From positions 1-64,000 of IMG/VR virus record IMGVR_UViG_3300009149_000023: 64,000 bases of DNA, one strand, 5' to 3'. The position numbers and the translations under genes were made by a program. This DNA comes from a virus. Below, piece by piece: positions 21,074 to 38,865 of this stretch (positions are counted from its first letter, which is position 1; the number at the start of each line of letters is the position of its first letter). The notes beneath the pieces were generated by a model. It did not search any database. It was not told the DNA's origin and saw only the letters and a program-made list of their open reading frames with translations.

Positions 21074-21721
21074 ATGACGTTTGCATTTGATATTGATGGA
21101 GTTATTGTTGATGTTAATAAAACAGTGCAGCAATATCTCAGAAAAACACATAACCTAACATACAAACAATTAGGTGTACAATATATCTGGCCTAAGCGTT
21201 TGTCTGAGTTTGAAGGTGTATTTGATGAGATGATTCGTCTTGATATAGAAAGGTTCATCTTTCAATCTTTCGATTATATACAAGACAGCATTTACCGTAC
21301 AGCCATCCTAAGCTCAATGAAGACTTTAGGCAAACAAGGACATAAAATTTACATAATTACCAATAGGCCCATTTATACAAAAGATGTTACACGACAGTGC
21401 TTTCCTGAAGATGTAGCTGAACATATAGAAGATTTCTTATTCTTTGAAGAAGGCATAGATACAGAAGGTAATGAAGACCTTTTTAAAATTAAAAGATGTC
21501 AATCGGTTAATGTTGACGTTTTAATAGATGATCGTGCTGATAATATAAAAGCTTTCGCAGAAACTACTAAGCATGGATTTTGGTTTGTCGATGAGATTCC
21601 TGAGGCAGATAGAATCAATGAAATTACAAAGTTAAACTCTGTTATTGTGTGTGACAGCAGTAACTTAAAGAAAAAACTCAGAGAGGTAATATACAATGTC
21701 AACTCGTCTGAAAGACACTGA
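21074..21721 (+). CDS. HAD-family 5'(3')-deoxyribonucleotidase-like phosphatase
   Basis: A 215-residue protein with AGGAGG before ATG. HAD motifs are in order: 'FDIDGVIVD' (nucleophile Asp6, acid Asp8), 'IYIITNRP' (motif II Thr), and 'VDVLIDDRADNI' (motif IV Asp-Asp with an Asn three residues later). Size and motifs match the 5' nucleotidase, deoxy (pyrimidine), type C family, which dephosphorylates deoxynucleoside monophosphates and is frequent in phages. It may tune the nucleotide pool, for example dUMP/dTMP if the genome uses a modified base, but that is speculation. Its end overlaps the RNA polymerase beta-prime start by 26 bases, so the two are cotranslated. Confidence 0.8.
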   Translation: MTFAFDIDGVIVDVNKTVQQYLRKTHNLTYKQLGVQYIWPKRLSEFEGVFDEMIRLDIERFIFQSFDYIQDSIYRTAILSSMKTLGKQGHKIYIITNRPIYTKDVTRQCFPEDVAEHIEDFLFFEEGIDTEGNEDLFKIKRCQSVNVDVLIDDRADNIKAFAETTKHGFWFVDEIPEADRINEITKLNSVIVCDSSNLKKKLREVIYNVNSSERH

Positions 21722-24569
21722 AAAATTCTGTGCCAAACTGATCCCCGTTACCTCTCCTTCTGTATTTAGAAAATTAGGAGAAACTGTAACCTTTGATGAG
21801 AAAGGTATTCTTTCTTATGAGATCTTTGGTACTAATGAGAATGAAAGAAGGGTAAGACACTCTTTCATTAATCTAAAGAATGTTCAAGTTCTTCATCCTA
21901 TTCTATACGATAAACTGAAAATTAATAGTAAGTTAAAAAACATTCTATATAATAAAGGTTCTTACATTATTAAGGGTGGCGAGCTTATTGCTGACCCAAA
22001 TGGAGATACAGGCATATCATTTTTTAAGTCTATTGTAGGAAGATATAAGCCTGAATCAGCTGCTATTCAAAAAGTCTTTGATATTATTAAAGTATCACCT
22101 TTTGCTTTCTTAAATAAGATTATTGTGATACCTCCTGCATTCAGAGAGACTGGAAAAGAATTAGTTTATAGAACCGTAACGGATCTCAATAAAGCATATA
22201 CTTCTTTAATTCGTGCAGCTAATGCAATTGCGGCTTCGGGAGACGCTGATGCTTACTCGGCTGAAATACAAAGGCTCATGGAAAATCTATATATTGCTAT
22301 TAAAGCACAAATTGGTTCCAAAGACGGAATATCAAGATCAAATATTCAAGGAAAACGTTTAGACTTTTCAGGTCGCGCTGTTATTACAATGGACCTGTCC
22401 TTAAAAATAGATGAATGTATTCTTCCTTTAGTTATAGCATTAAAAATGTTTGAACCTTTCATAATTGCTGAGTTTAAGAAACAGCCCGGACGTAAGCCAG
22501 GCGACTATTTAATTTATGATATGTTACAAGATGTTTATGATAATCTTGATGCCAGTGACTATTATGAAGAAGTTAAGAAAGTAATAGATTCAATTGCCGC
22601 AACACGCCTTGTGCTGCTTAATCGTGCACCTTCTCTACATAAACTATCACTGCTTGCATTCAAACCGCGCATAACCTTAGATAAGGTTATCAAACTAAAT
22701 CCTTTTATACTTGATGGATACAATGCTGACTTTGATGGTGACCAGATGGGTGTATACAGTCCTTTGACAAGACAAGGACAAGAGGAAGCTAAAAAACTTC
22801 TACCTTCCAATAACTTATTTAATGTAGCTTCAAGAAAGATATCAACACAGCTTTCTGAAAACTTTGCGTTATACTTATATTATAGTACTGCATGGGAGTC
22901 AACTTCTGCACCCGCAAGTAAGTTAGACACTAATAAAAAGAATCTTGATTTCTTTAGACGTGTTACACTTAAAGGAGAAACAGCTACCGTAGGCAGATGG
23001 TTATTAACTCTTGCTATTAGAGAAGCTGTCTTGGATGATAAGTATCCTATAATTAAGCAGCCTATAAATAAATCAATATTTAGTCAAATGTTATCTGATA
23101 TCTTTATGAAGTATGGTAAGAATGCTTTGATAGGTGTGCTGTATAAAGTTAGAGATTTGACCATGGAATATGGTTCATTACTACCAGACGTACTTCCTGA
23201 AATAAAACTTAGTGACACTGCTAAGAAAGAGCTCCTTCCTAAAATAGAAGAATTAAAACATACTCCTGATGTATGGGATGATATTGTAAGTATAGTAAAA
23301 AGAGATATAAGAAATCATCAAAAGAACTTATACATTCTTCTTGAATCTAAAACAACTAAGCTTGACTGGAATAAGATTACACAGGCGTTAGTTGCTAAAG
23401 GCTATACTCAAACACTTTCAGGTGAGAACAAATTAATGACATCAAGTCAGCTCGATGGTTTAACACAAGAAGAACTTTTAGTGGATACTTCTAATGCTAG
23501 AAGAGGTATTGTTGACAGAGCTCTTATGACAGGTAAGCCTGGTTATTTAACCAGAAAGCTAATTTTTGCATTAGGCTCAACATTACTACATCCTACATTA
23601 AAAGATTGTGGAACTAGCAGAACACTAAAACTAAGAGTAAACAAGAATCATGTTAATAGCTTAGTAGGAAGATATGCTTTATTAAATGGTAAGCTAGTTT
23701 TACTTGAGAAAGCTGATGCTGAAAAATTAGTAGGAAGTACAATCAATGTAAGGTCTCCTGCCTACTGTAAGAGTAAACAAATATGCCATACTTGTTATGG
23801 CATGCTAAGCAAATATGTGAACTCAAAGAACATAGGTATTATAGCTTCTCAAGCTATAGGCGAGTTAGGTACTCAGATGATTATGAGAACCTTCCATGTA
23901 GATACTCTTGTTACTACAGCTAAAAAGACATTACCTACTATTAAAGAATTTAAGTTAACAGATGCAGGTTATGTAGCGATGCAGCCTGTGGTAATACATT
24001 TAAAGAAAGACGATATAGAAGAAAGGTCTGACTTTAGTATAGTAACAAAAGCTATTACTGTCAACGATGCACGATACGATTTTGTATTTACTGTTTCCTT
24101 ATTAGCTGTCGAAGACTCAAGAGAAACAGCAACTACACTAGAGTTAGCATTTCCTAAAGGAGCTATTCCTCTATTCGGAGGCTCAACAGGACATCTAAGG
24201 GATAAGATATCTGAAGTTGATGGTTTATTTGAATTAAGTCAGAAACTAAAAATTAGAGATGCCACAGCATTACTAGAAAGACTATTTGATGAATATTATA
24301 CGCTTGGTAAACTAGATCATGTACATTTTGAATTGTTTATAGGTGCTATGATGAGAAGTAAAGCTAAGCCTGAAATTCCTTTCAGATTATCAACTGATAC
24401 AGCTTACCAATTAGTGCCTATCTCAAAAGTAGCACTTTATGAAAGTCCTCAACTTGCTTTTATATTCCAAAGACAGTCAGATGCTATTATTGCAGGACTA
24501 TATCAAGATACTCTTGAAGAAGACCCAGAAGAACGAACCAAATCCGATTTAGAAGAATATTACTACTAG
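21696..24569 (+). CDS. DNA-directed RNA polymerase beta-prime subunit, single chain
   Basis: A 957-residue protein with the conserved beta-prime blocks in order: 'GKRLDFSGRAVI' (219-230), 'LNRAPSLHKL' (308-317), the catalytic 'NADFDGD' (343-349, three Asp that hold the Mg ion), a partial Zn2-like site (Cys691, 697, 700, in 'SPAYCKSKQICHTCYG'), and the trigger-loop region 'ASQAIGELGTQMIMRTFH' (717-734). It lacks the N-terminal zinc ribbon and much of the length of bacterial beta-prime (about 1400 in E. coli). In phiKZ- and AR9-type phages beta-prime is normally split into two polypeptides; here both halves are fused. It precedes beta, the reverse of the bacterial rpoB-rpoC order. All key catalytic residues are intact, so it should be active. 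Confidence 0.95.
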   Translation: MSTRLKDTEKFCAKLIPVTSPSVFRKLGETVTFDEKGILSYEIFGTNENERRVRHSFINLKNVQVLHPILYDKLKINSKLKNILYNKGSYIIKGGELIADPNGDTGISFFKSIVGRYKPESAAIQKVFDIIKVSPFAFLNKIIVIPPAFRETGKELVYRTVTDLNKAYTSLIRAANAIAASGDADAYSAEIQRLMENLYIAIKAQIGSKDGISRSNIQGKRLDFSGRAVITMDLSLKIDECILPLVIALKMFEPFIIAEFKKQPGRKPGDYLIYDMLQDVYDNLDASDYYEEVKKVIDSIAATRLVLLNRAPSLHKLSLLAFKPRITLDKVIKLNPFILDGYNADFDGDQMGVYSPLTRQGQEEAKKLLPSNNLFNVASRKISTQLSENFALYLYYSTAWESTSAPASKLDTNKKNLDFFRRVTLKGETATVGRWLLTLAIREAVLDDKYPIIKQPINKSIFSQMLSDIFMKYGKNALIGVLYKVRDLTMEYGSLLPDVLPEIKLSDTAKKELLPKIEELKHTPDVWDDIVSIVKRDIRNHQKNLYILLESKTTKLDWNKITQALVAKGYTQTLSGENKLMTSSQLDGLTQEELLVDTSNARRGIVDRALMTGKPGYLTRKLIFALGSTLLHPTLKDCGTSRTLKLRVNKNHVNSLVGRYALLNGKLVLLEKADAEKLVGSTINVRSPAYCKSKQICHTCYGMLSKYVNSKNIGIIASQAIGELGTQMIMRTFHVDTLVTTAKKTLPTIKEFKLTDAGYVAMQPVVIHLKKDDIEERSDFSIVTKAITVNDARYDFVFTVSLLAVEDSRETATTLELAFPKGAIPLFGGSTGHLRDKISEVDGLFELSQKLKIRDATALLERLFDEYYTLGKLDHVHFELFIGAMMRSKAKPEIPFRLSTDTAYQLVPISKVALYESPQLAFIFQRQSDAIIAGLYQDTLEEDPEERTKSDLEEYYY

Positions 24570-24578
24570 GAGGCAGCT

Positions 24579-27500
24579 TTGTATCTGCAAAGATTTAGAT
24601 TATTTAGTTCACGAGACCCTAAACTCCGGTTTGAAGACGAAGGTTATAGAATATTTACTATAGTGGAGAATTCAACTTTTCCTAAACTATATCCTAAGTC
24701 AGGCCTCATGAAAGAAGATTGCCGTATTGTAGTAATCCCTAAAGTTCAGACAAAGTTTGGTTTAGTGCAGACTGCTAAATTAAAATCCGATTACTCCGCA
24801 ACTAAATTAGTTTCGTATATTGATACACATACTATTAAAGAATCCGATAAGAATGCTTATATAGACTTAACACCTGTAATGGACTTTATGCGCCCACGTT
24901 TAAAAAGGTTTGATTCAGATGTTGCCTACAGAACATTTATGGCTATGATGGATAACCTAGATACAGGTCCAGGTAAAAAAGTTTTACTTTATATGCTTGA
25001 TATGACAAGGCCTGCAGCATTACGATTAACAGAGATGTATATAGCTGTATTGATTTATGCTATGATGCGAAGAAAGACTATGCCTTTCCATACAGTAATG
25101 TTTGGTGCTATTGGCGGTGGTAGTAAGTTTAGAAAGATTTATGAAGCTGACGATTCGTTAAACAGTTATCAAAAGATTATATCAACTATGAGGACTGAAC
25201 TTTCACATATGAGTTCAGGTGCCATGTCTATTGCAATGGCGCAGCAAATTAGCGAAGACTTAGATGTGCCTACAGAAAAGGTAATTCCTATTATAAAGAC
25301 TCTAATAAGTGATACACCCCCTGAGCAAAGATCTAGACTTATAAACCTCGCAAATGCTGATCCTAAGAAGATTAGGGAAATAGTAGTTAAGACTTCTCAG
25401 AAGATGACAGGGCATACTATCATTAAAGATCTACCTTTACAGCTAAAGAAAGTTGAAATGAAAACTTTGTCTGCTGATATGCCTAGTGCACAAATTACAC
25501 AAGTAACGGAGTTAACAAAAGCTAAGCAACCTGTTACTTCACTTGATATAAGTTCAGATCTTAATACACATTTAGTTATTCCTAGGATGACTTTAAACGT
25601 TAATTCAGTATCATTAGCTCCTTTAGTTAATCATGTTACTGGTAAAGAGTTTTCAACTACGTTGGATGTTAGCCCTAATCCTAAGTTTTCAGGAACTAAC
25701 CTTATTAAAGTTAAGATTGTTGATTCCAAGACAAATAAAACACAGGACATCGAAGCAATTATCCCTAACTTAAAGTCTGATGGATCCTTTAAGATGTATG
25801 GACAAACATATACACTTAAGAAACAAATTGCGTCACTTCCTGTAGCAAAGTATAAAGAGAATGAGATTTCTATTGAAACATTACTGACTAACTTTAAGCT
25901 TGTTCGCAAAAAAGTAGGGCATAAAGTTTATATCAATTTCAGTAAGTATACTTCACTGCCTTTATTCTATTATTTAGCTGCTGTTATAGGACCAGAAGCT
26001 CTTTGTAAGAAACTAGACATCGAGGTCACTAAAACAGGAAAAGGTTTAACACTGCAACCTAAAGGTGGCTTAGGTTCAATAATTTCTCCAAAGATGCTAG
26101 AATCAACTGACAAAGACTACTTTAAAAAAGAGTTAGAGAAGATGATAGGTAACAGAGGATTAATTCACTACTTAGTAGAGAAGCTTCCAGAAAAAGCAAT
26201 AGATCCTAGCACGCTTGATTTACTTAAAACATCTAAGATGCCAACTAATTTTATTGATATGATTATATTTGCAGCAACAAAACTGGTTAAGGATTTACCG
26301 GAAGCTCCTAATGACCTACATCATAGAAGAATAAGATCAACAGAAGTAGTTAATAAGATATTCTTATCTGGCTTAGATAGAGCACTTAGTACTTATAAAC
26401 AGGATGTAGCTTCTGGTAGAGTAGATGCTGACATTGTAATTGATCCTAACTTTGTTATGAATACTTTGAGAGAAACGGGTGCTATAGACTTTGCGGAAAG
26501 TAAACCTAATCCTGTAGCAGAAATTGCTAGTAAGAATAAAGTAAATTATTCAGGCTATGCTACGTTTAGATCAGAGAATACTCCTATAGCTTTTAGAGAT
26601 ATTCATCCGTCACAGAAAGGATTACTTGATCCAATCGAAACAGCAAAAGATTCTTCAGTGGGAGATCAATTATATTTAACAGTATCTCCTAACATAATGT
26701 CTAATAATAATCTTTTTGTTCCTACAAGCAACCCTGATTCAATGCTAGGCTATACAACTAGCTTAACTCCTTTTCTTGAATCTTCTGCTACCGCACGTAC
26801 AAACATGGGAACCTCTCATACAAAGCAAGCAGTACCTATAGTTGAGTCTGAAGCACCTTTTGTTATGAGTGGTATAGAAGGTGTCTATAAAGACATTACT
26901 TCTGACAAGTTTATTACTAAGTCACCTGTAGACGGAAAAGTTACTTCTATTAAGAAAACTTATATGACTATTACAGACAAGGCTAAAAAGACACATAAGA
27001 TCAATCTTGTTAAACCGCATATTACTACAGGAACAGGTATAGCAATAAATAATGTACATGCACCCGTTGTAAGTGTAGGTGATAACGTAAAGGTAAAGGA
27101 TATCCTAGCTGAAAACTTTACCTTCAAAGGCGGCATTCTTGCTATAGGAAAGAACTTGCTCTGTGCCTTTGCTTTATACAATTCTACTAATTACATGGAT
27201 GGTGTTATCATATCATCACATTTAAAAGAGAGCATGGCTGTTGAAGAGATTAGTAAAAAAGTAGTGTATGTAAATCCTGAAACAGATAGAATACTTCATT
27301 TTCATTCTAAGCTAGGACCTATTGGAAAGAATACAACGCTTATTAAGTATGATACTTCTGCTTTTAACATAGCAGCTTATGAAAGGTCAGTAGTTACAGT
27401 AAAAGGAAATGCTATAGGATCATTAGAAGCTATTGTATTAAAAGCACCTAAGAAGTCCTTAGCAGATGAGCTGTTACGAAAACTTCCAGACATAGATAAG

Positions 27501-28430
27501 AGTAATATAACTGTTATCATTAAGGATGACATAGATAAAACCGTCGAGCTTACATTTGAAGTTAAGTTACTGAATACTCTTAAAGTTGGAGACAAGTTTG
27601 GTAATAAGCACGGAAACAAAGGTGTTATTAATCACATCATTCCTGAAGAAGAAACTCCTTACATTGTAGAAGATGGAAGATGGTTAGATTGTGTATTAAA
27701 TCCTTTGGGACTGTTTGGTCGAACTAACTGGGGACAGTATAAAGAATTATTGGTGTCTGCTATATTGTATGAGTTTAACAAACAGTTTGTAGAGATATAC
27801 AAAGTCAAAGGAAGGAAAGCAGCTTCTGAATATTTTGCTTCTTCTGCTGTTAAGTTAAACAAGATTAAAGATTATGACAAACTAATTCTTTCTAGGCTTA
27901 ACAGGATGTCTGACAAACAGATGAAGGAATTAGTTACTAGCATTAAAAAGGAAGAGCAATTACTTCCTATACACATTCCTCCATTCAAGAGTGCTTCGTA
28001 TAGTGATCTATTAGCATTAGGAGAACAGCTAAATGTAGTTAAGACTATTAGATGTCCTGAACTTGGTAAAGATATTAGAGCATTAGTAGGTTACATGTAT
28101 TTCCATAGGCTAGAGCATTTACCTGAGTACAAATTAAATGCTAGGTCTACAGGTGTTTATAGATACAGAACTAAGCAGCCTGTTGCTGGAAAGAAGATGA
28201 TGGGTGGACAAAGATTTGGAGAAATGGAAAATTGGTGTTTACTTTCACATGATTGTCCTACAATAATGCAAGAGTTTAAGACAGTGCAGTCTGATGACTT
28301 TGATTATAAGAATAAAGTTATAACACAGATACTAAATGGTGAAGTTCCTGAAATGCCTGCAACTAAACAGCATACTGCAATTTACGATATGTTCAAAGCT
28401 TTAATGACCGGGTTGCATATAGATATTTAA
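24579..28430 (+). CDS. DNA-directed RNA polymerase beta subunit, single chain
   Basis: A 1283-residue protein starting at TTG, 5 bases after a perfect AGGAGG and 9 bases after the beta-prime stop. The C-terminal core motifs of beta are clear: 'GDKFGNKHGNKG' (1004-1015, with the two active-site lysines Lys1006 and Lys1014), 'LNPLGLFGRTNWGQ' (from 1040), and 'GGQRFGEMENW' (1209-1219), which interlocks with beta-prime. 'GDQLYLTVSPNIMSNNNLF' is an upstream beta block. The N-terminal ~600 residues are more divergent. With beta-prime it makes the catalytic pair; no alpha, omega or recognisable sigma is in the window, as in other phage multisubunit polymerases. Likely reads the phage promoters marked in this list. 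Confidence 0.95.
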   Translation: MYLQRFRLFSSRDPKLRFEDEGYRIFTIVENSTFPKLYPKSGLMKEDCRIVVIPKVQTKFGLVQTAKLKSDYSATKLVSYIDTHTIKESDKNAYIDLTPVMDFMRPRLKRFDSDVAYRTFMAMMDNLDTGPGKKVLLYMLDMTRPAALRLTEMYIAVLIYAMMRRKTMPFHTVMFGAIGGGSKFRKIYEADDSLNSYQKIISTMRTELSHMSSGAMSIAMAQQISEDLDVPTEKVIPIIKTLISDTPPEQRSRLINLANADPKKIREIVVKTSQKMTGHTIIKDLPLQLKKVEMKTLSADMPSAQITQVTELTKAKQPVTSLDISSDLNTHLVIPRMTLNVNSVSLAPLVNHVTGKEFSTTLDVSPNPKFSGTNLIKVKIVDSKTNKTQDIEAIIPNLKSDGSFKMYGQTYTLKKQIASLPVAKYKENEISIETLLTNFKLVRKKVGHKVYINFSKYTSLPLFYYLAAVIGPEALCKKLDIEVTKTGKGLTLQPKGGLGSIISPKMLESTDKDYFKKELEKMIGNRGLIHYLVEKLPEKAIDPSTLDLLKTSKMPTNFIDMIIFAATKLVKDLPEAPNDLHHRRIRSTEVVNKIFLSGLDRALSTYKQDVASGRVDADIVIDPNFVMNTLRETGAIDFAESKPNPVAEIASKNKVNYSGYATFRSENTPIAFRDIHPSQKGLLDPIETAKDSSVGDQLYLTVSPNIMSNNNLFVPTSNPDSMLGYTTSLTPFLESSATARTNMGTSHTKQAVPIVESEAPFVMSGIEGVYKDITSDKFITKSPVDGKVTSIKKTYMTITDKAKKTHKINLVKPHITTGTGIAINNVHAPVVSVGDNVKVKDILAENFTFKGGILAIGKNLLCAFALYNSTNYMDGVIISSHLKESMAVEEISKKVVYVNPETDRILHFHSKLGPIGKNTTLIKYDTSAFNIAAYERSVVTVKGNAIGSLEAIVLKAPKKSLADELLRKLPDIDKSNITVIIKDDIDKTVELTFEVKLLNTLKVGDKFGNKHGNKGVINHIIPEEETPYIVEDGRWLDCVLNPLGLFGRTNWGQYKELLVSAILYEFNKQFVEIYKVKGRKAASEYFASSAVKLNKIKDYDKLILSRLNRMSDKQMKELVTSIKKEEQLLPIHIPPFKSASYSDLLALGEQLNVVKTIRCPELGKDIRALVGYMYFHRLEHLPEYKLNARSTGVYRYRTKQPVAGKKMMGGQRFGEMENWCLLSHDCPTIMQEFKTVQSDDFDYKNKVITQILNGEVPEMPATKQHTAIYDMFKALMTGLHIDI

Positions 28431-32073: not shown

Positions 32074-32117
32074 CCGTTTTGTATTAATATCTTATACATA
32101 AAGGGAGGGTTCATGAA

Positions 32118-32507
32118 ATGGCTTTAGGGTCCCACATAATAGTTGATTTAGAAAATTGCGACAAAGCTTTGCTTAACGATGCTACCTTTATTGAACAACT
32201 TCTAAAAGACGCTGTAGTTGTAGCAGGTGCTACCGAGTTAAATACTTATGTACACTCATTTAATCCGCAAGGTATAACGGGTGCTACTGTTTTAGCTGAG
32301 TCACATATCACTATACATACTTTTCCAGAGTTAGGCGTAGCTTGTTTAGACGCTTTTACTTGTGGAGATCATACCAAACCACAAGCAGCTATTGATCATA
32401 TGGCTAAAGCATTGAAAGGAACGATGAATGAAATAACTGGTCTTACTAGAGGGAAAGATTTTAAGTTTCTTACCGAAGAAGAAAGGAATGCTATAGTTTA
32501 TGACTAA
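32118..32507 (+). CDS. speD: S-adenosylmethionine decarboxylase-like pyruvoyl enzyme
   Basis: A 129-residue protein with GGGAGGG before ATG. It matches the class 1b (Bacillus/Thermotoga type) proenzyme along its length. The self-cleavage site is 'LAESHITIHTFPE', cutting between Glu61 and Ser62 so that Ser62 becomes the pyruvoyl group. The processing His67 and catalytic Cys82 ('AFTCGDHTKP') are present. The reaction would be decarboxylation of S-adenosylmethionine to the aminopropyl donor for spermidine. Some SpeD homologues are known to have changed to ornithine or arginine decarboxylation, so the substrate is not certain. Residues after ~112 are not SpeD: they match the start of a helix-turn-helix module cut by the TAA stop (see 32508). 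Confidence 0.92.
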   Translation: MALGSHIIVDLENCDKALLNDATFIEQLLKDAVVVAGATELNTYVHSFNPQGITGATVLAESHITIHTFPELGVACLDAFTCGDHTKPQAAIDHMAKALKGTMNEITGLTRGKDFKFLTEEERNAIVYD

Positions 32508-32609
32508 GTACGAACTCTTAGGAAACAGGGTGTTAAGAGAAAAGACATTGCTAAGAAATTTAATATGCGTTATGAGATGATTTGGGCTATTTGCAAGGAT
32601 ACTACATAA
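32508..32609 (+). pseudogene. Helix-turn-helix segment in frame after the speD stop
   Basis: Directly after the speD TAA, the same frame continues for 33 sense codons and reads 'VRTLRKQGVKRKDIAKKF', then 'NMRYEMIWAICKDTT', then TAA. Together with the last speD residues ('FLTEEERNAIVYD') this is a textbook HTH layout: helix 1, 'LRKQGVKRKDIAKKFNM' turn, recognition helix 'RYEMIWAICK'. There is no start codon or RBS for the segment alone. It is either the remains of a SpeD-HTH fusion broken by one stop, or a readthrough extension. Confidence 0.6.
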
Positions 32610-32619
32610 AGGAGCACAC

Positions 32620-32979
32620 ATGACTGACCACTCACTTTCTTATAGTGAAAAAGATGGCTGCCTAATCTTTTCACTACAGGGGCCTCTTAATTATATTTCC
32701 TGTACTGTGCTAGAATCACAAAAACTTTACTTTGTTGAGAAAGCCGTGGAAGATAAAGTAAAAGCAATAATTATTGATTTTAGTGCTGTAGGCTATGTGG
32801 ATAGTGCAGGTATCTCTGTTTTGCTACAATACTACGCAGTTTGTAAAGATTTAAACATACCGTTAGCATTAATTTCAATGAATTCAATAGTATACAAAGT
32901 CTTTCGAATAACTAATTTAAATCGACTTTTCTTAATTACCAAGACTTATTCTGAAGCAATAGAATCCATTAATCAGTAG
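32620..32979 (+). CDS. STAS-domain anti-sigma-factor antagonist, SpoIIAA-like
   Basis: A 119-residue single STAS domain with AAGGAG before ATG. It has the family's features: an N-terminal beta hairpin, 'VKAIIIDFSAVGYVDSAGISVLLQYYAVCK' as beta strand, phospho-site loop and helix (about 48-77), then 'IPLALISMNSIVYKVFRITNLNRLFLI'. Asp61-Ser62-Ala63-Gly64 is the position of the phosphorylated Ser in SpoIIAA and RsbV. Such proteins bind anti-sigma kinases and so free a sigma factor. In a phage with its own polymerase this suggests interference with a host partner-switching pathway. No kinase or sigma factor is seen nearby. Confidence 0.9.
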   Translation: MTDHSLSYSEKDGCLIFSLQGPLNYISCTVLESQKLYFVEKAVEDKVKAIIIDFSAVGYVDSAGISVLLQYYAVCKDLNIPLALISMNSIVYKVFRITNLNRLFLITKTYSEAIESINQ

Positions 32980-33496: not shown

Positions 33497-35635
33497 ATGT
33501 CTGACCAGAGTGCAATCCAACACAGATATCTAGATCCATTTGAAAAATTAACATCGGATACTACTAACAGGATTCTGATGGCTGTCTACCCAGACGGCAA
33601 AGGTTTGAAGACGGGACTAGAACTTTCAATTAACGGAACTGACCCTAGAGTAGTTGATGTTACACAAGGTGTAGCAATTAAGGACTTTGTAGTTATCAAC
33701 TACTTTGCGGACTTTACTATTACGTTCGATGAAGCAGTAGTACCTGATGATTACTATGTAGTTGTTCTGGAGTATAGATATCAGAAGATGTCTCCTCCTC
33801 CAATAGCAATTGTTAAAATCATTGAAGCAGCTGATTACTCTCCTTTATTTCATATTGTATTAGGAGTACTTCATGTAGCTGGTAACCAGATTGTAGGAAT
33901 TACCAACCAGCATCCAACTATTCCTGAAATAGTAAGACCTGCTGCCGCATTAAGTGATCATAATTCACTTCCAAACCTTCAGGGTGGCCTTGCAGTAAGT
34001 GAATACTATCATTTGACACAAGCTGAGTATGCAATAGTTCATCAATTGTTTTTAGATGGACAGTTAGATCATAACGAACTAACAGGCATTCAAGGTGGTG
34101 CTCCTGGTTCAGGTGGAAGTCCTGGAGAAAGATATCATCTAACATTATGGGAACATGATCATGTACAGCAAGCTCTTGCAGGAACTTGGAAGGTTCCTTT
34201 TGCTGACAAGCTAGATGATCATCCTGCTGCAGATTTTTCTTTAGTAACACATACTCATATACATAATAGTTTGTCAGATTTACAAGGCGGTAATGGTACA
34301 GATGAGTTTTATCACTTTACAGTTGACGAACATTCCGATCTTCAGGGTGTACTTGATGGAACCTTTGCAATAGACGATTCCTTACGACTTGGTGGAAAGC
34401 TTCCTAGTGAGTATGCAGATGCTATTCATAACCATGTGCATAATACATTGGACAATCTGCAGGGAGGGAATGGTACGGATGAGTTCTACCACTTCACTGC
34501 CTCAGAGCATGTTAATATCCTTGGGGTCCTTTCAGGCTCTTATAAAGCGTCTGATGCTGACTTACTTGATGGATTAGATTCTAGTGCATTTGCATTAGCT
34601 GTTCATACACATGTGCATAATGATCAGGTTGATTTACAAGGCGGCATATCTACTGAAAGATATCATTTAACATTAGCAAGCTATAATAATTTGCAAGGAT
34701 TGATTGCAGGAACTATCTCAGTTCCTAATGCAGACAAACTTGACGGCTATGACTCAACAGATTTTGCAACAGCAACTCATACACATACTCACAATAGTCT
34801 TTCCAACCTTCAAGGTGGTAATACTACTGAACGTTATCACGTGTATAGTAATTGGTACAATGCTATGCAGAATGCGACAACACCTTCAAGTACAAATCCA
34901 TTTATGACTATAAATGATTTGTCAGCTATCCAGCATAATGCTATTGGTGGTCTACAAGGTGGAACAACTAATCAGTATTATCATTTCACACAGGCACAGC
35001 ATACTGGCTTAACTGGCGGTGGAGATGCTTCTGCTTATCATAATCACAATACATGTTATTACACTAAAGCAGTAGCTGACAGCAGATACTTAAGAGTAGA
35101 TGGTTTTAATCCGATGCAAGGAAACCTTAACATGGGTAACAATCGCGTGCAGTATGTTGCTACTCCTGTAAGTTCTACTGACGGTGTAAACAAAGCGTAT
35201 GTTGATGGTTGGACTCCTTCAGCGATTTGTCATAATGAATTGACTAACATTCAGGGCGGTACATCAACAGAAAGATACCATATTAGATTAAATCAATATA
35301 ATATGCTCACAAACTCTAATGGAACTGTTGACGATGCTTCAACAATGCATCATCACGATAGTTGTTATTATACTAAGACAACTTCTGATGGAAGGTATCT
35401 CTTTGCAGCCGGTGGCTCAATGACAGGAACTCTAAATGCAAATAATAACAGAATTTGCGGACTTCCTTCATCACCTCTTACTGCAACAGAAGCTGTTTCT
35501 AAAGCATGGGTTGATTCCTTAGCAGGTGTTCCAACAGGAGCTGTTGTAGGTAAACAAACTAACGACGGCTTAACAGGTTTCGCAGCATTAAACATTCAAG
35601 ACAGTGCCGGAATGTGGTTGTACCAGAAATCATAG
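33497..35635 (+). CDS. Tail fibre 1 with LQGG repeats
   Basis: A 712-residue fibre. Residues 1-150 are the attachment domain shared with three other proteins in the window. Then come eight repeats of the form H-N-x-L-x-x-(L/I)-Q-G-G-x-x-x-(E/D)-x-Y-H-(L/F)-T, spaced 50-75 residues, several with 'ADKLD.HDS..FA' linkers between them. Repeats of this LQGG...YHLT type are typical of long phage tail fibres. The C-terminus ('TNDGLTGFAALNIQDSAGMW') lacks the extended receptor-binding domain found in fibres 2 and 3, so it may be a proximal fibre section or a partner. RBS AAGGAGG precedes ATG. Confidence 0.88.
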   Translation: MSDQSAIQHRYLDPFEKLTSDTTNRILMAVYPDGKGLKTGLELSINGTDPRVVDVTQGVAIKDFVVINYFADFTITFDEAVVPDDYYVVVLEYRYQKMSPPPIAIVKIIEAADYSPLFHIVLGVLHVAGNQIVGITNQHPTIPEIVRPAAALSDHNSLPNLQGGLAVSEYYHLTQAEYAIVHQLFLDGQLDHNELTGIQGGAPGSGGSPGERYHLTLWEHDHVQQALAGTWKVPFADKLDDHPAADFSLVTHTHIHNSLSDLQGGNGTDEFYHFTVDEHSDLQGVLDGTFAIDDSLRLGGKLPSEYADAIHNHVHNTLDNLQGGNGTDEFYHFTASEHVNILGVLSGSYKASDADLLDGLDSSAFALAVHTHVHNDQVDLQGGISTERYHLTLASYNNLQGLIAGTISVPNADKLDGYDSTDFATATHTHTHNSLSNLQGGNTTERYHVYSNWYNAMQNATTPSSTNPFMTINDLSAIQHNAIGGLQGGTTNQYYHFTQAQHTGLTGGGDASAYHNHNTCYYTKAVADSRYLRVDGFNPMQGNLNMGNNRVQYVATPVSSTDGVNKAYVDGWTPSAICHNELTNIQGGTSTERYHIRLNQYNMLTNSNGTVDDASTMHHHDSCYYTKTTSDGRYLFAAGGSMTGTLNANNNRICGLPSSPLTATEAVSKAWVDSLAGVPTGAVVGKQTNDGLTGFAALNIQDSAGMWLYQKS

Positions 35636-35646
35636 GAGTAAGATAG

Positions 35647-36138
35647 ATGCCATCCCAAGACCTAATCCAAAGAAGGTCTTTAGACTACAAACAGCGAGTT
35701 ATATCAGATACAGTAAACTTAAAGTTTGCAGCATTAACAGTCTGGCCTGACAATGTTGTAATAGATGGTTTTGAACCAATTAAACTATCCAATACTAAGC
35801 TGAAAATTACTCCTGGTTATGGTTTAAAGGACCGTGTACTCATAACGTACATAGACAAGGTAGAAATAGATACTACCTTGCTTGCTGACGCAGATTACTG
35901 CGTGGTAATGCATTACGAACGGGATTTGGTAGAGCCGCCAAACGCTGCTGAAATAAAAACAATTACTTTAGCTGAATATCAAGCTAATAGCACTAAGTAT
36001 GTGTTCTTAGCATATCTTGAAGTAGTTAATGGTTTAATTGTTACTTTGCTAGATCATCATCCTACCATCAGTACCATCAGAGTTCCTAGATGGGGACACT
36101 CAGAACTATCAGGTCTCCAAGGTGGTAAGGTAACATAA
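35647..36138 (+). CDS. Tail fibre 2, N-terminal part before an in-frame TAA
   Basis: A 163-residue product of the shared attachment domain ('IQRRSLDYKQRVISD' start), ending in the first LQGG repeat: '...HSELSGLQGGKVT' then TAA. The same frame continues after the stop as 'NEYYHLSEAEHTALSS', which completes the repeat and aligns with '...DEFYHLSEAEHTAVGS' of fibre 3. The stop therefore interrupts one coherent fibre gene, which spans 35647-38865. If the stop is real and not read through, only a short anchor would be made. GGAG precedes ATG. Confidence 0.8.
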   Translation: MPSQDLIQRRSLDYKQRVISDTVNLKFAALTVWPDNVVIDGFEPIKLSNTKLKITPGYGLKDRVLITYIDKVEIDTTLLADADYCVVMHYERDLVEPPNAAEIKTITLAEYQANSTKYVFLAYLEVVNGLIVTLLDHHPTISTIRVPRWGHSELSGLQGGKVT

Positions 36139-38865
36139 AATGAATACTATCATTTATCTGAGGCTGAGCATACAGCCTTATCCTCTTTAGTTGTTTCTTC
36201 TACTTTAGATCACAATGCTGACCTTTCTAACATTCAAGGTGGAGACGTTGATGAATATTATCATTTTCTAGCAGATGAAGGGCTAGGCATCAGTGCTATT
36301 TTGTCAGACGATCAAGTTGCTTGGCATGCTAATTTTATCTATACAGATTTAGGCGGTTTTGTAAACGCTGACAAATTAGGGACATTATCTTCAACAGATT
36401 TAGCATTAGCTGTTCATACACATGAGCATAAAAGCCTTTCAGATCTACAAGGCGGTGTTGCGGATGAGTATTACCATTTTGATCAAACAGAACATGCAGG
36501 CTTACAAACTATACTGACATCCTCTGTTGTAGAAAATACTGAAAAGCTTGGAGGAAGATTAGCTAGTGATTTCGCATTAGCAATACACAATCATCAACAC
36601 TATAATTTATTAAATGTTCAAGGCGGTGCTGCTTTTCAGCAATTCCATCTTTCATTGAATGATAGAAATAGTATAAATGCTATTGCTAATGAAACTGTGC
36701 CTTTTCCTAATGTAGACAAGCTAGACGGAAAGGACTCAACTGGTTTTGCATTAGCAGAACATGTGCATAGCCATACTACTTCTTTTACAGGAAAGCAAGG
36801 TGGGACAACTAATCAGTATTATCATGTTAAGGCATCTTCTATCTCTTTCATAGCGAATGTTATTTCAGGAGCGCAGAAGATTCCTAACGCTGATCTTATA
36901 AATGGTAAGACAGCGGCAGATTTCGCCTTCTCAGGCCATACACATAATCATGGCAATATTAATAATACGCAAGGTGGCGTGTCTGGACAGAAATATCACC
37001 TTACTAAAAACTTTTATGATTCGTTAAGTGCTTCCAACAGTCCGAGTGCAACTAATGTTTTATTAACTAAATCTTTTGTTAACTCAAACAACCTTCAGCA
37101 TACTAATTTATTAGTGCAAGGTGGTCAGTATCATTTAACTAGTTCACAAGTAAATCTGTTAACTGGTGCTTTTGATGCTAGCTCGTTACACGTTCATGGA
37201 AGTAGCTATTATACAAAAACTTTATCTGAAGGCAAGTATGTTAATGTTACAGGAGATTCTATCCCTGTTAATAGTTTAAGTATTGGTAATCATAAGATTA
37301 CTAATTTAGCTATTCCTGTTAGTTCGAGTGATATAGCTTCAAAAAGTTACGCGGATACTAAACTTGCTGGATCTTTAAATCATAATCAGATAGCAGGTCT
37401 TCAGGGCGGTTCCTTTAATGATTACTATCACATAAAAAGTTCATCACTTACTAATTTAACAACAAGTATTGATGGATCGCTTGAACATTTGCATGCTAGT
37501 AGATACTATAAGAAGTCAGTTGCTGATACTACTTTTATAGATGTCGCTGGTGATACTATAACATCCAATCTTAATATGAATGGGAACAGAATTAATGTTG
37601 CTCCATTAGCAACAGATCCTACTGACATAGTTACTAAAAGCTATGTTGAGGCAGCAGGAGTAATAATTCCTACTGGCACATTGCTAAGACATACATCTAA
37701 CAATGCTACTGCTATGACTAGTAGTGGTTATGTACAAGTTAATAAAACAATATCTTTCCCTTCTCTAATAGCAGCAGGTTCTGCTGATACTCTTCACAGG
37801 CATGTGTATCCTGTAGGTTTTAGCCAGAAAGGCGAGGCTGCAAGATTAAATAGTTATACTGTTGCTAATAACAGTGCTGACTCTCATGTATTTATTGTAG
37901 TAAAAGAAGACGTCCTTGCCCCGTACGGAGGAATGTTATATCAAGTTTGGTATTGTTATGATGCTAACGTAGCAACAAATTCAGTATCACTTGTGCAGAC
38001 ATTTACAAGTGAGCCTGTTTTCCCCGGACCTGTAAATCCTCCTCCACCTGACCCTAGTTACCCAGTTCCTGCTTTCTTAACATTTGTAAAGATAGCTGGA
38101 AAGTATTATTCTGTATTTGCAAATAGTTTACAAGAAAGCACTGACTTGTTATCATGGACAGTAAAAGCAAGTGTAGGTAACTCGTCAGCGAAGTTAGCAT
38201 ATAACGCTGTAGACAATACTATCGGCATTATCACAGCGGCAGGGCAATTTACTCGATATGATATTAGTGCAGGTACAAAGCTCGGTCCTATAAACATGGG
38301 ACTAGCTGGAACATCTATTGCAAACTTTGATATATTCCCTGCTTTAAGTAATACAGGAAACATTGTAGGATTTTATGTCTATAAAAAGACAACAGGAGAA
38401 ATGATATTTATTAACATACTTAAAACAGGCGCAGCCTTACAGTATAAAAAGGTTTCCTTAGGCGTCACCCCTTCGGCAGGTAATCGTGACTTTACAATGC
38501 TTAACGGAAGTGCAGGACATTTCCATATGATGGGCTATCCAACTACAGGAGGGCTTAATACTATATTAGCTCCTTGCGTTTATACTCCTGGTTATAGTTA
38601 TGTTACAACATCTGTTGCCATTTCTAATTATGCATCCGCTGGTGTTTCTCAACATTACAGTGGTGGCTCTGCCTACGCTGTAGAAGTTGAACAAGTTGTA
38701 GGGCCTACTGATTACTTTACTTGGATAAAAGTACAAACAACAAAGTTTTCAGGTTCAAGCAATTATTCAGTTCCTGCGGTGTCAATGTCTGTTAGAGCAG
38801 ATACATCAGTTGTTAATGATAGAATGTTACTTGAGCAATCTAATTTTTATTATAAGAAGTTGTGA
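36139..38865 (+). CDS. Tail fibre 2, repeat and receptor-binding part after the TAA
   Basis: In-frame continuation of the 35647 gene. It carries the rest of repeat 1, seven more LQGG-type repeats, 'NADKLG' linkers, and a ~400-residue C-terminal domain (from 'GTLLRHTSNNATAMTSSGYV') paralogous to the C-terminus of fibre 3, likely the receptor-binding head. No ATG with an RBS lies near the break; the first near-cognate start is TTG at 36301 without a Shine-Dalgarno site. So expression probably needs the upstream start, by readthrough or after reversion of the stop. Confidence 0.75.
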   Translation, partial: NEYYHLSEAEHTALSSLVVSSTLDHNADLSNIQGGDVDEYYHFLADEGLGISAILSDDQVAWHANFIYTDLGGFVNADKLGTLSSTDLALAVHTHEHKSLSDLQGGVADEYYHFDQTEHAGLQTILTSSVVENTEKLGGRLASDFALAIHNHQHYNLLNVQGGAAFQQFHLSLNDRNSINAIANETVPFPNVDKLDGKDSTGFALAEHVHSHTTSFTGKQGGTTNQYYHVKASSISFIANVISGAQKIPNADLINGKTAADFAFSGHTHNHGNINNTQGGVSGQKYHLTKNFYDSLSASNSPSATNVLLTKSFVNSNNLQHTNLLVQGGQYHLTSSQVNLLTGAFDASSLHVHGSSYYTKTLSEGKYVNVTGDSIPVNSLSIGNHKITNLAIPVSSSDIASKSYADTKLAGSLNHNQIAGLQGGSFNDYYHIKSSSLTNLTTSIDGSLEHLHASRYYKKSVADTTFIDVAGDTITSNLNMNGNRINVAPLATDPTDIVTKSYVEAAGVIIPTGTLLRHTSNNATAMTSSGYVQVNKTISFPSLIAAGSADTLHRHVYPVGFSQKGEAARLNSYTVANNSADSHVFIVVKEDVLAPYGGMLYQVWYCYDANVATNSVSLVQTFTSEPVFPGPVNPPPPDPSYPVPAFLTFVKIAGKYYSVFANSLQESTDLLSWTVKASVGNSSAKLAYNAVDNTIGIITAAGQFTRYDISAGTKLGPINMGLAGTSIANFDIFPALSNTGNIVGFYVYKKTTGEMIFINILKTGAALQYKKVSLGVTPSAGNRDFTMLNGSAGHFHMMGYPTTGGLNTILAPCVYTPGYSYVTTSVAISNYASAGVSQHYSGGSAYAVEVEQVVGPTDYFTWIKVQTTKFSGSSNYSVPAVSMSVRADTSVVNDRMLLEQSNFYYKKL

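Follow-up and report, generated by a model that had tools for sequence, protein, structure and literature searches.

A complete phage speD gene followed by a candidate helix-turn-helix remnant

The speD locus and its genome setting

The window analyzed here covers positions 1-64000 of a viral contig that is 73,096 bases long and encodes the capsid, portal, and terminase proteins of a tailed phage. On its plus strand, the open reading frame at 32118-32507 encodes a protein of 129 amino acids and ends in TAA; its family matches identify it with certainty as a class 1b S-adenosylmethionine decarboxylase (SpeD). The match to the family extends over residues 2-112 (PF02675, 8.5e-36; TIGR03330, 3.3e-37), and the TIGR03330 score of 127.2 bits, against a cut-off of 75.65, covers positions 2-112 of 112, a full-length match. 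The residues required for self-cleavage and catalysis, S62, H67, and C82, are all present, with the roles of the self-cleavage Ser and the catalytic His and Cys taken to be those described for SpeD (PMC10407285), and E61 S62 H63, H67, and C82 are invariant in the alignments. From what is known of the family, the proenzyme is predicted to self-cleave at Ser62 to form the pyruvoyl group, and the mature enzyme would supply the infected cell's spermidine synthesis with decarboxylated S-adenosylmethionine.

The speD product would end at the TAA at 32505-32507, which lies 69 residues from the ESH motif. In the 76 cellular SpeDs that were compared, excluding a few fusions and extended open reading frames, the same distance is 56-83 residues with a mode of 69, so that the TAA sits at the usual end of a SpeD. 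With the domain whole, the key residues kept, and a length of the cellular type, the SpeD domain is complete at the TAA. The C-terminal tail, residues 113-129 (KDFKFLTEEERNAIVYD; 32454-32504, plus strand), appears to be lineage-specific, as it differs in a relative that is 58% identical. A preliminary description of the locus had called this end "not SpeD-like". The family models indeed do not reach residues 113-129. Variable C-termini are common to SpeDs at large, however, as seen in 80 phage and 76 cellular SpeDs, and the observation, though correct, carries little weight. Homology with the tails of Firmicute SpeDs was considered and rejected after a shuffle test, in which residues 113-129 matched cellular SpeD tails no better than their own shuffles did.

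Two features of the surroundings may be recorded here. An extra, out-of-frame ATG that opens a tiny reading frame is found a few bases 5' of the true speD start, at 32113-32120 on the plus strand (TTCATGAAATGGC), and the 58% identical relative has an equivalent ATG upstream of its own speD (TTCATGCAATGGC), so that the pattern is common to both phages. Directly 3' of speD, at 32620-32979 on the plus strand, is a STAS-domain gene of the anti-sigma-factor-antagonist type (PF01740, 1.9e-17; TIGR00377, 8.2e-15, which barely exceeds the cut-off). This is unusual company in a phage with its own RNA polymerase: at 21696-28430 (plus strand), two large open reading frames in the same frame and in the order beta'-beta represent a phage-encoded multi-subunit enzyme. 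The beta' frame, of 957 amino acids, is matched by Rpb1 domains 2 and 5, and the beta frame, of 1283 amino acids, by Rpb2 domains 3, 6, and 7; a scan of viral contigs returned no relative of the latter.

Helix-turn-helix resemblance behind the stop

As the preliminary description had it, to the exact coordinates, a single in-frame TAA at 32505-32507 is followed by 33 open codons (VRTLRKQGVKRKDIAKKFNMRYEMIWAICKDTT), which with their own TAA at 32607-32609 occupy 32508-32609 on the plus strand. An open run of at least 33 codons follows the stop in 19 of the 71 genes, mostly through overrun into the next gene, so the length of this stretch alone is not unusual. Its codon usage scores 0.16 bit per codon, compared with a gene mean of 0.23, a value that is reached by none of 41 off-frame open stretches and by 12% of those on the reverse strand. 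The stretch ranks among the most gene-like of the non-genic open stretches in the window.

The claim that helix-turn-helix (HTH)-like coding sequence continues in the same frame after the TAA was supported by the family models. Taken by themselves, the codons after the stop give a Pfam HTH_7 match with an E value of 0.0057 (17.2 bits). When the query is joined across the stop, as had been proposed, the match is retained and the score rises, to 20.1 bits (E 7e-4) with the stop as X and to 22.2 bits (E 1.5e-4) with the TAA read as Q. All of these scores (17.2 to 22.2 bits) are under the curated Pfam cut-off of 23.8. A six-frame search of the whole 73-kb record with stops read through placed the sole HTH_7 match at this site, at 32499-32564 on the plus strand, with an E value of 1.7e-4 that applies to HTH_7 alone, as one family; HTH_23 has no match anywhere in the record. 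The match starts at Tyr128, two residues before the stop. FLTEEERNAI, which had earlier been taken for the first HTH helix, is thus mostly outside it and LTEEE wholly so.

Structure prediction points in the same direction. An AlphaFold model of the 53-residue tail, built from the single sequence with the stop read as Gln, contains helices at residues 10-26, 31-38, and 42-50 with a mean pLDDT of 77, and a model of the full read-through product, the alignment for which held no homologue covering the HTH part, has the same helices at about 81-90. Both models thus predict a three-helix HTH fold. The best Foldseek matches are the HTHs of serine recombinases and resolvases (2r0q, probability 1.00, TM 0.68, E 0.2), and VIA-align returned TrpR, DeoR, KorB, and resolvases with Z up to 6.6, a value that the tool itself warns is middling for helical folds. 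A sequence search of the PDB with the tail gave k-cTRP5 as its sole match, a weak one (E 0.16). The 33 codons have no significant direct homologue in phages or plasmids (best E about 3). The nearest look-alike was the beginning of a large protein of a Streptomyces phage (GirlPower), which preserves the same spacing across the position of the stop and was set aside at its E value of 3.

The placement of the stretch is also informative. Its terminal TAA lies 10 nt from the STAS start, close to the genome's median gap of 11, and the Shine-Dalgarno sequence of the STAS gene, AAAGGAG, overlaps that TAA (32607-32609). If the HTH frame is disregarded, the gap between speD and the STAS gene becomes 112 nt, the fifth longest of 70. 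The 10-nt gap and the AAAGGAG overlap hint at a former coding sequence with its end at 32609. The frame contains no ATG, GTG, or TTG 5' of the second helix, however, and as it stands is therefore not a normal gene.

Whether the resemblance to an HTH is genuine has to be weighed against chance, that is, a short, lysine-rich open stretch that never encoded anything. The sub-threshold HTH_7 scores and the want of a near homologue leave room for this explanation. There were 71 gene ends and many frames to pick from, the E value of 1.7e-4 needs correction for the large number of HTH families, and the codon score is equaled by 12% of the reverse-strand open stretches. Against it stand the uniqueness of the HTH_7 site in 73 kb, a model that predicts an HTH with fair confidence from sequence alone, gene-like codons in the correct frame, and a frame that stops directly at the Shine-Dalgarno sequence of the next gene. 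On these grounds we consider pure chance unlikely. The HTH resemblance is probably more than accidental, with support that is moderate rather than strong, and HTH_7, the models, and the codon usage together tip the balance toward a genuine HTH-coding origin of the post-stop stretch.

SpeD relatives and the question of a fusion

SpeDs are a familiar component of phage genomes, and ornithine or arginine decarboxylases have arisen from some of them (PMC9992855, PMC10407285). The present protein resembles the phage class 1b SpeDs of those reports in its S, H, and C residues and in being an accessory phage gene. It differs from most of them in running longer past the conserved core, as phage SpeDs often end at RG+1, and the locus is unlike theirs in the putative HTH remnant after the stop; its substrate class is a sequence-based assignment. 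In most of 80 phage SpeD loci the conserved Arg is no more than a few residues from the end, and some carry tails of unrelated sequence; an HTH is present in none of them, whether as part of the tail or directly after the stop. Likewise, an HTH follows the SpeD core in none of the 76 cellular SpeDs. Long cellular SpeD frames run into other sequence, which in two cases is by eye spermidine synthase-like (L140, L143).

The closest relative found (G001) shares 58% identity in SpeD and 72% in the capsid protein. Its SpeD ends in RGESFNFSDSAHLVQTQ, followed by unrelated sequence, with no HTH after the core, and both the tail and the gene neighborhood differ. A capsid protein search recovered five related contigs, of which this relative alone has a SpeD; the remaining four, in which none was detected, are fragments. 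This distribution suggests that speD is an accessory gene. The five contigs hold no relative of the STAS gene, and searches of viral contigs by SpeD alone, by terminase, and by the RNA polymerase beta subunit gave no near relative; no close relative with the same speD neighborhood was found. A literature search on SpeD, HTH, and fusion yielded nothing relevant by title or abstract.

These comparisons bear on the central proposal of the preliminary description, a decarboxylase joined to a DNA-binding module. An intact SpeD-HTH fusion could exist in the phage, or in part of its population, if the TAA were a recent nonsense mutation or an assembly or sequencing error. In keeping with this, SpeD and the HTH share a frame, the predicted first helix spans the stop, and treating the TAA as a residue adds 3 bits (X) or 5 bits (Q) to the HTH_7 score. 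In addition, at a distance of 3.6 kb, a second in-frame TAA breaks a tail-fibre gene, which makes a nonsense change or an error at speD slightly more likely. However, no SpeD-HTH protein was seen among the 80 phage, the 76 cellular, and the nearest relative's SpeDs, the SpeD is already of normal length at the TAA, and its apparent absence from the four other capsid-bearing contigs, which are fragments, suggests an accessory gene. We regard an intact fusion as distinctly unlikely. As a working arrangement the SpeD-HTH fusion is not supported: it is absent from all the homologues compared, which end with no conserved sequence downstream, an outcome that the preliminary description had named as refuting; the SpeD of this phage has the usual cellular length without an HTH; and no signal of TAA readthrough was found.

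The interrupted tail-fibre gene, at 35647-38865 on the plus strand, consists of LQGG-type repeats and has one in-frame TAA at 36136-36138, reading LQGGKVT before the stop and NEYYHLSEAEH after it. Fibre repeats flank this TAA on both sides. The frame after it comprises 908 codons, in which the first ATG, GTG, or TTG start is a TTG at 36301. The neighboring fibre paralogue at 33497-35635 is intact.

Fusions of SpeD with another SpeD-type decarboxylase have been reported (PMC10407285). Those fusions and the long SpeD frames indicate that further domains can follow SpeD; the known fusions have an enzyme as partner and keep the frame open, whereas here an HTH lies behind a stop. The locus also shows that an HTH-like tail behind a stop is weak evidence for a fusion. 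If a fusion were true, the HTH could anchor the enzyme to DNA or place the operon under the enzyme's own control. We know of no earlier example of a pyruvoyl enzyme with a DNA-binding tail, and a true fusion would be the first known to us. As found, the locus is best classed as that of an ordinary accessory speD of a phage, and at most it captures a coding fragment in the course of decay between two phage genes.

Origin of the post-stop stretch

An ATG at 32500-32502 on the plus strand overlaps the SpeD stop (ATGACTAA), as is often the case between neighboring phage genes, and opens a frame of 26 codons in another phase. A separate small HTH protein might be made today from this ATG with the help of ribosomal frameshifting, or else from a non-standard start, and the end of the HTH frame beside the next gene would agree with it. 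However, the frame of the ATG is not gene-like (codon score -0.08), the necessary change of frame comes with no recognized slippery site, and the nearest AAAGGA is 13 nt away, a long spacing. A conceptual product shifted at CTC-TTA matched no Pfam family at E values up to 1. Such a protein is therefore very unlikely.

Programmed readthrough of the TAA to yield a small amount of SpeD-HTH is extremely unlikely, for although an open frame of the correct phase follows the stop and the fibre gene has a similar TAA, TAA is the commonest stop (44 of 71 genes), no tRNA gene, and hence no suppressor tRNA, was found in the record, and the downstream RNA has no unusual structure (z +0.54). UAA is generally the least leaky of the stops, and neither a terminator nor an RNA structure was found directly after the SpeD stop. 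The earlier suggestion of a readthrough site thus found no signal behind it. There is only a slim chance that a SpeD with a resolvase-type HTH at its C-terminus is produced, whether by the phage population or by this phage through readthrough; such a polyamine enzyme would bind DNA and might control its own operon.

The reading that we favor, at somewhat better than even confidence, is a complete SpeD that ends at its own stop and is followed by an HTH remnant that is probably untranslated. Behind the stop, the frame would hold the 3' portion of a sequence coding for an HTH, one that would no longer be, or never have been, translated at a useful level. The stretch has no normal start 5' of its second helix, and a good stop sets it apart from SpeD. 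Under this reading it would be the relic of an HTH segment that was once translated, and two origins can be proposed. It may derive from a mini-gene that overlapped the end of speD, starting at the ATG across the stop (ATGACTAA), and later lost its frame, which fits the normal length of the SpeD. Alternatively, recombination may have added an HTH tail to speD in the same frame, and a nonsense change may then have severed it, which fits the better HTH score obtained with a residue in place of the TAA. The available sequences do not distinguish between the two origins. A plain neighboring relic does not predict the gain in HTH_7 score with the TAA read as a residue.

With regard to the kind of HTH, both the best family match and the best Foldseek match are the C-terminal HTH of serine recombinases and resolvases (HTH_7; 2r0q, 1gdt, 2gm4), in which the HTH is the last domain. 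The present stretch differs from them in its score below the cut-off, in having no recombinase catalytic domain, and in the SpeD and stop that precede it. The T of FLTEEERNAI and the G beyond the stop are 20 residues apart by our own count, which puts FLTEEERNAI about five residues farther from the conserved glycine than in HTHs of the resolvase type. Finally, searches with degenerate DNA patterns matched one other open reading frame and the tails of two phage endonucleases, which were named GIY-YIG-like by eye from their sequence; this record contains no GIY-YIG domain. The HTH tails of these homing endonuclease-like proteins and the post-stop stretch have G-V-x-x-K-D-I-A-K-K-F-N in common.
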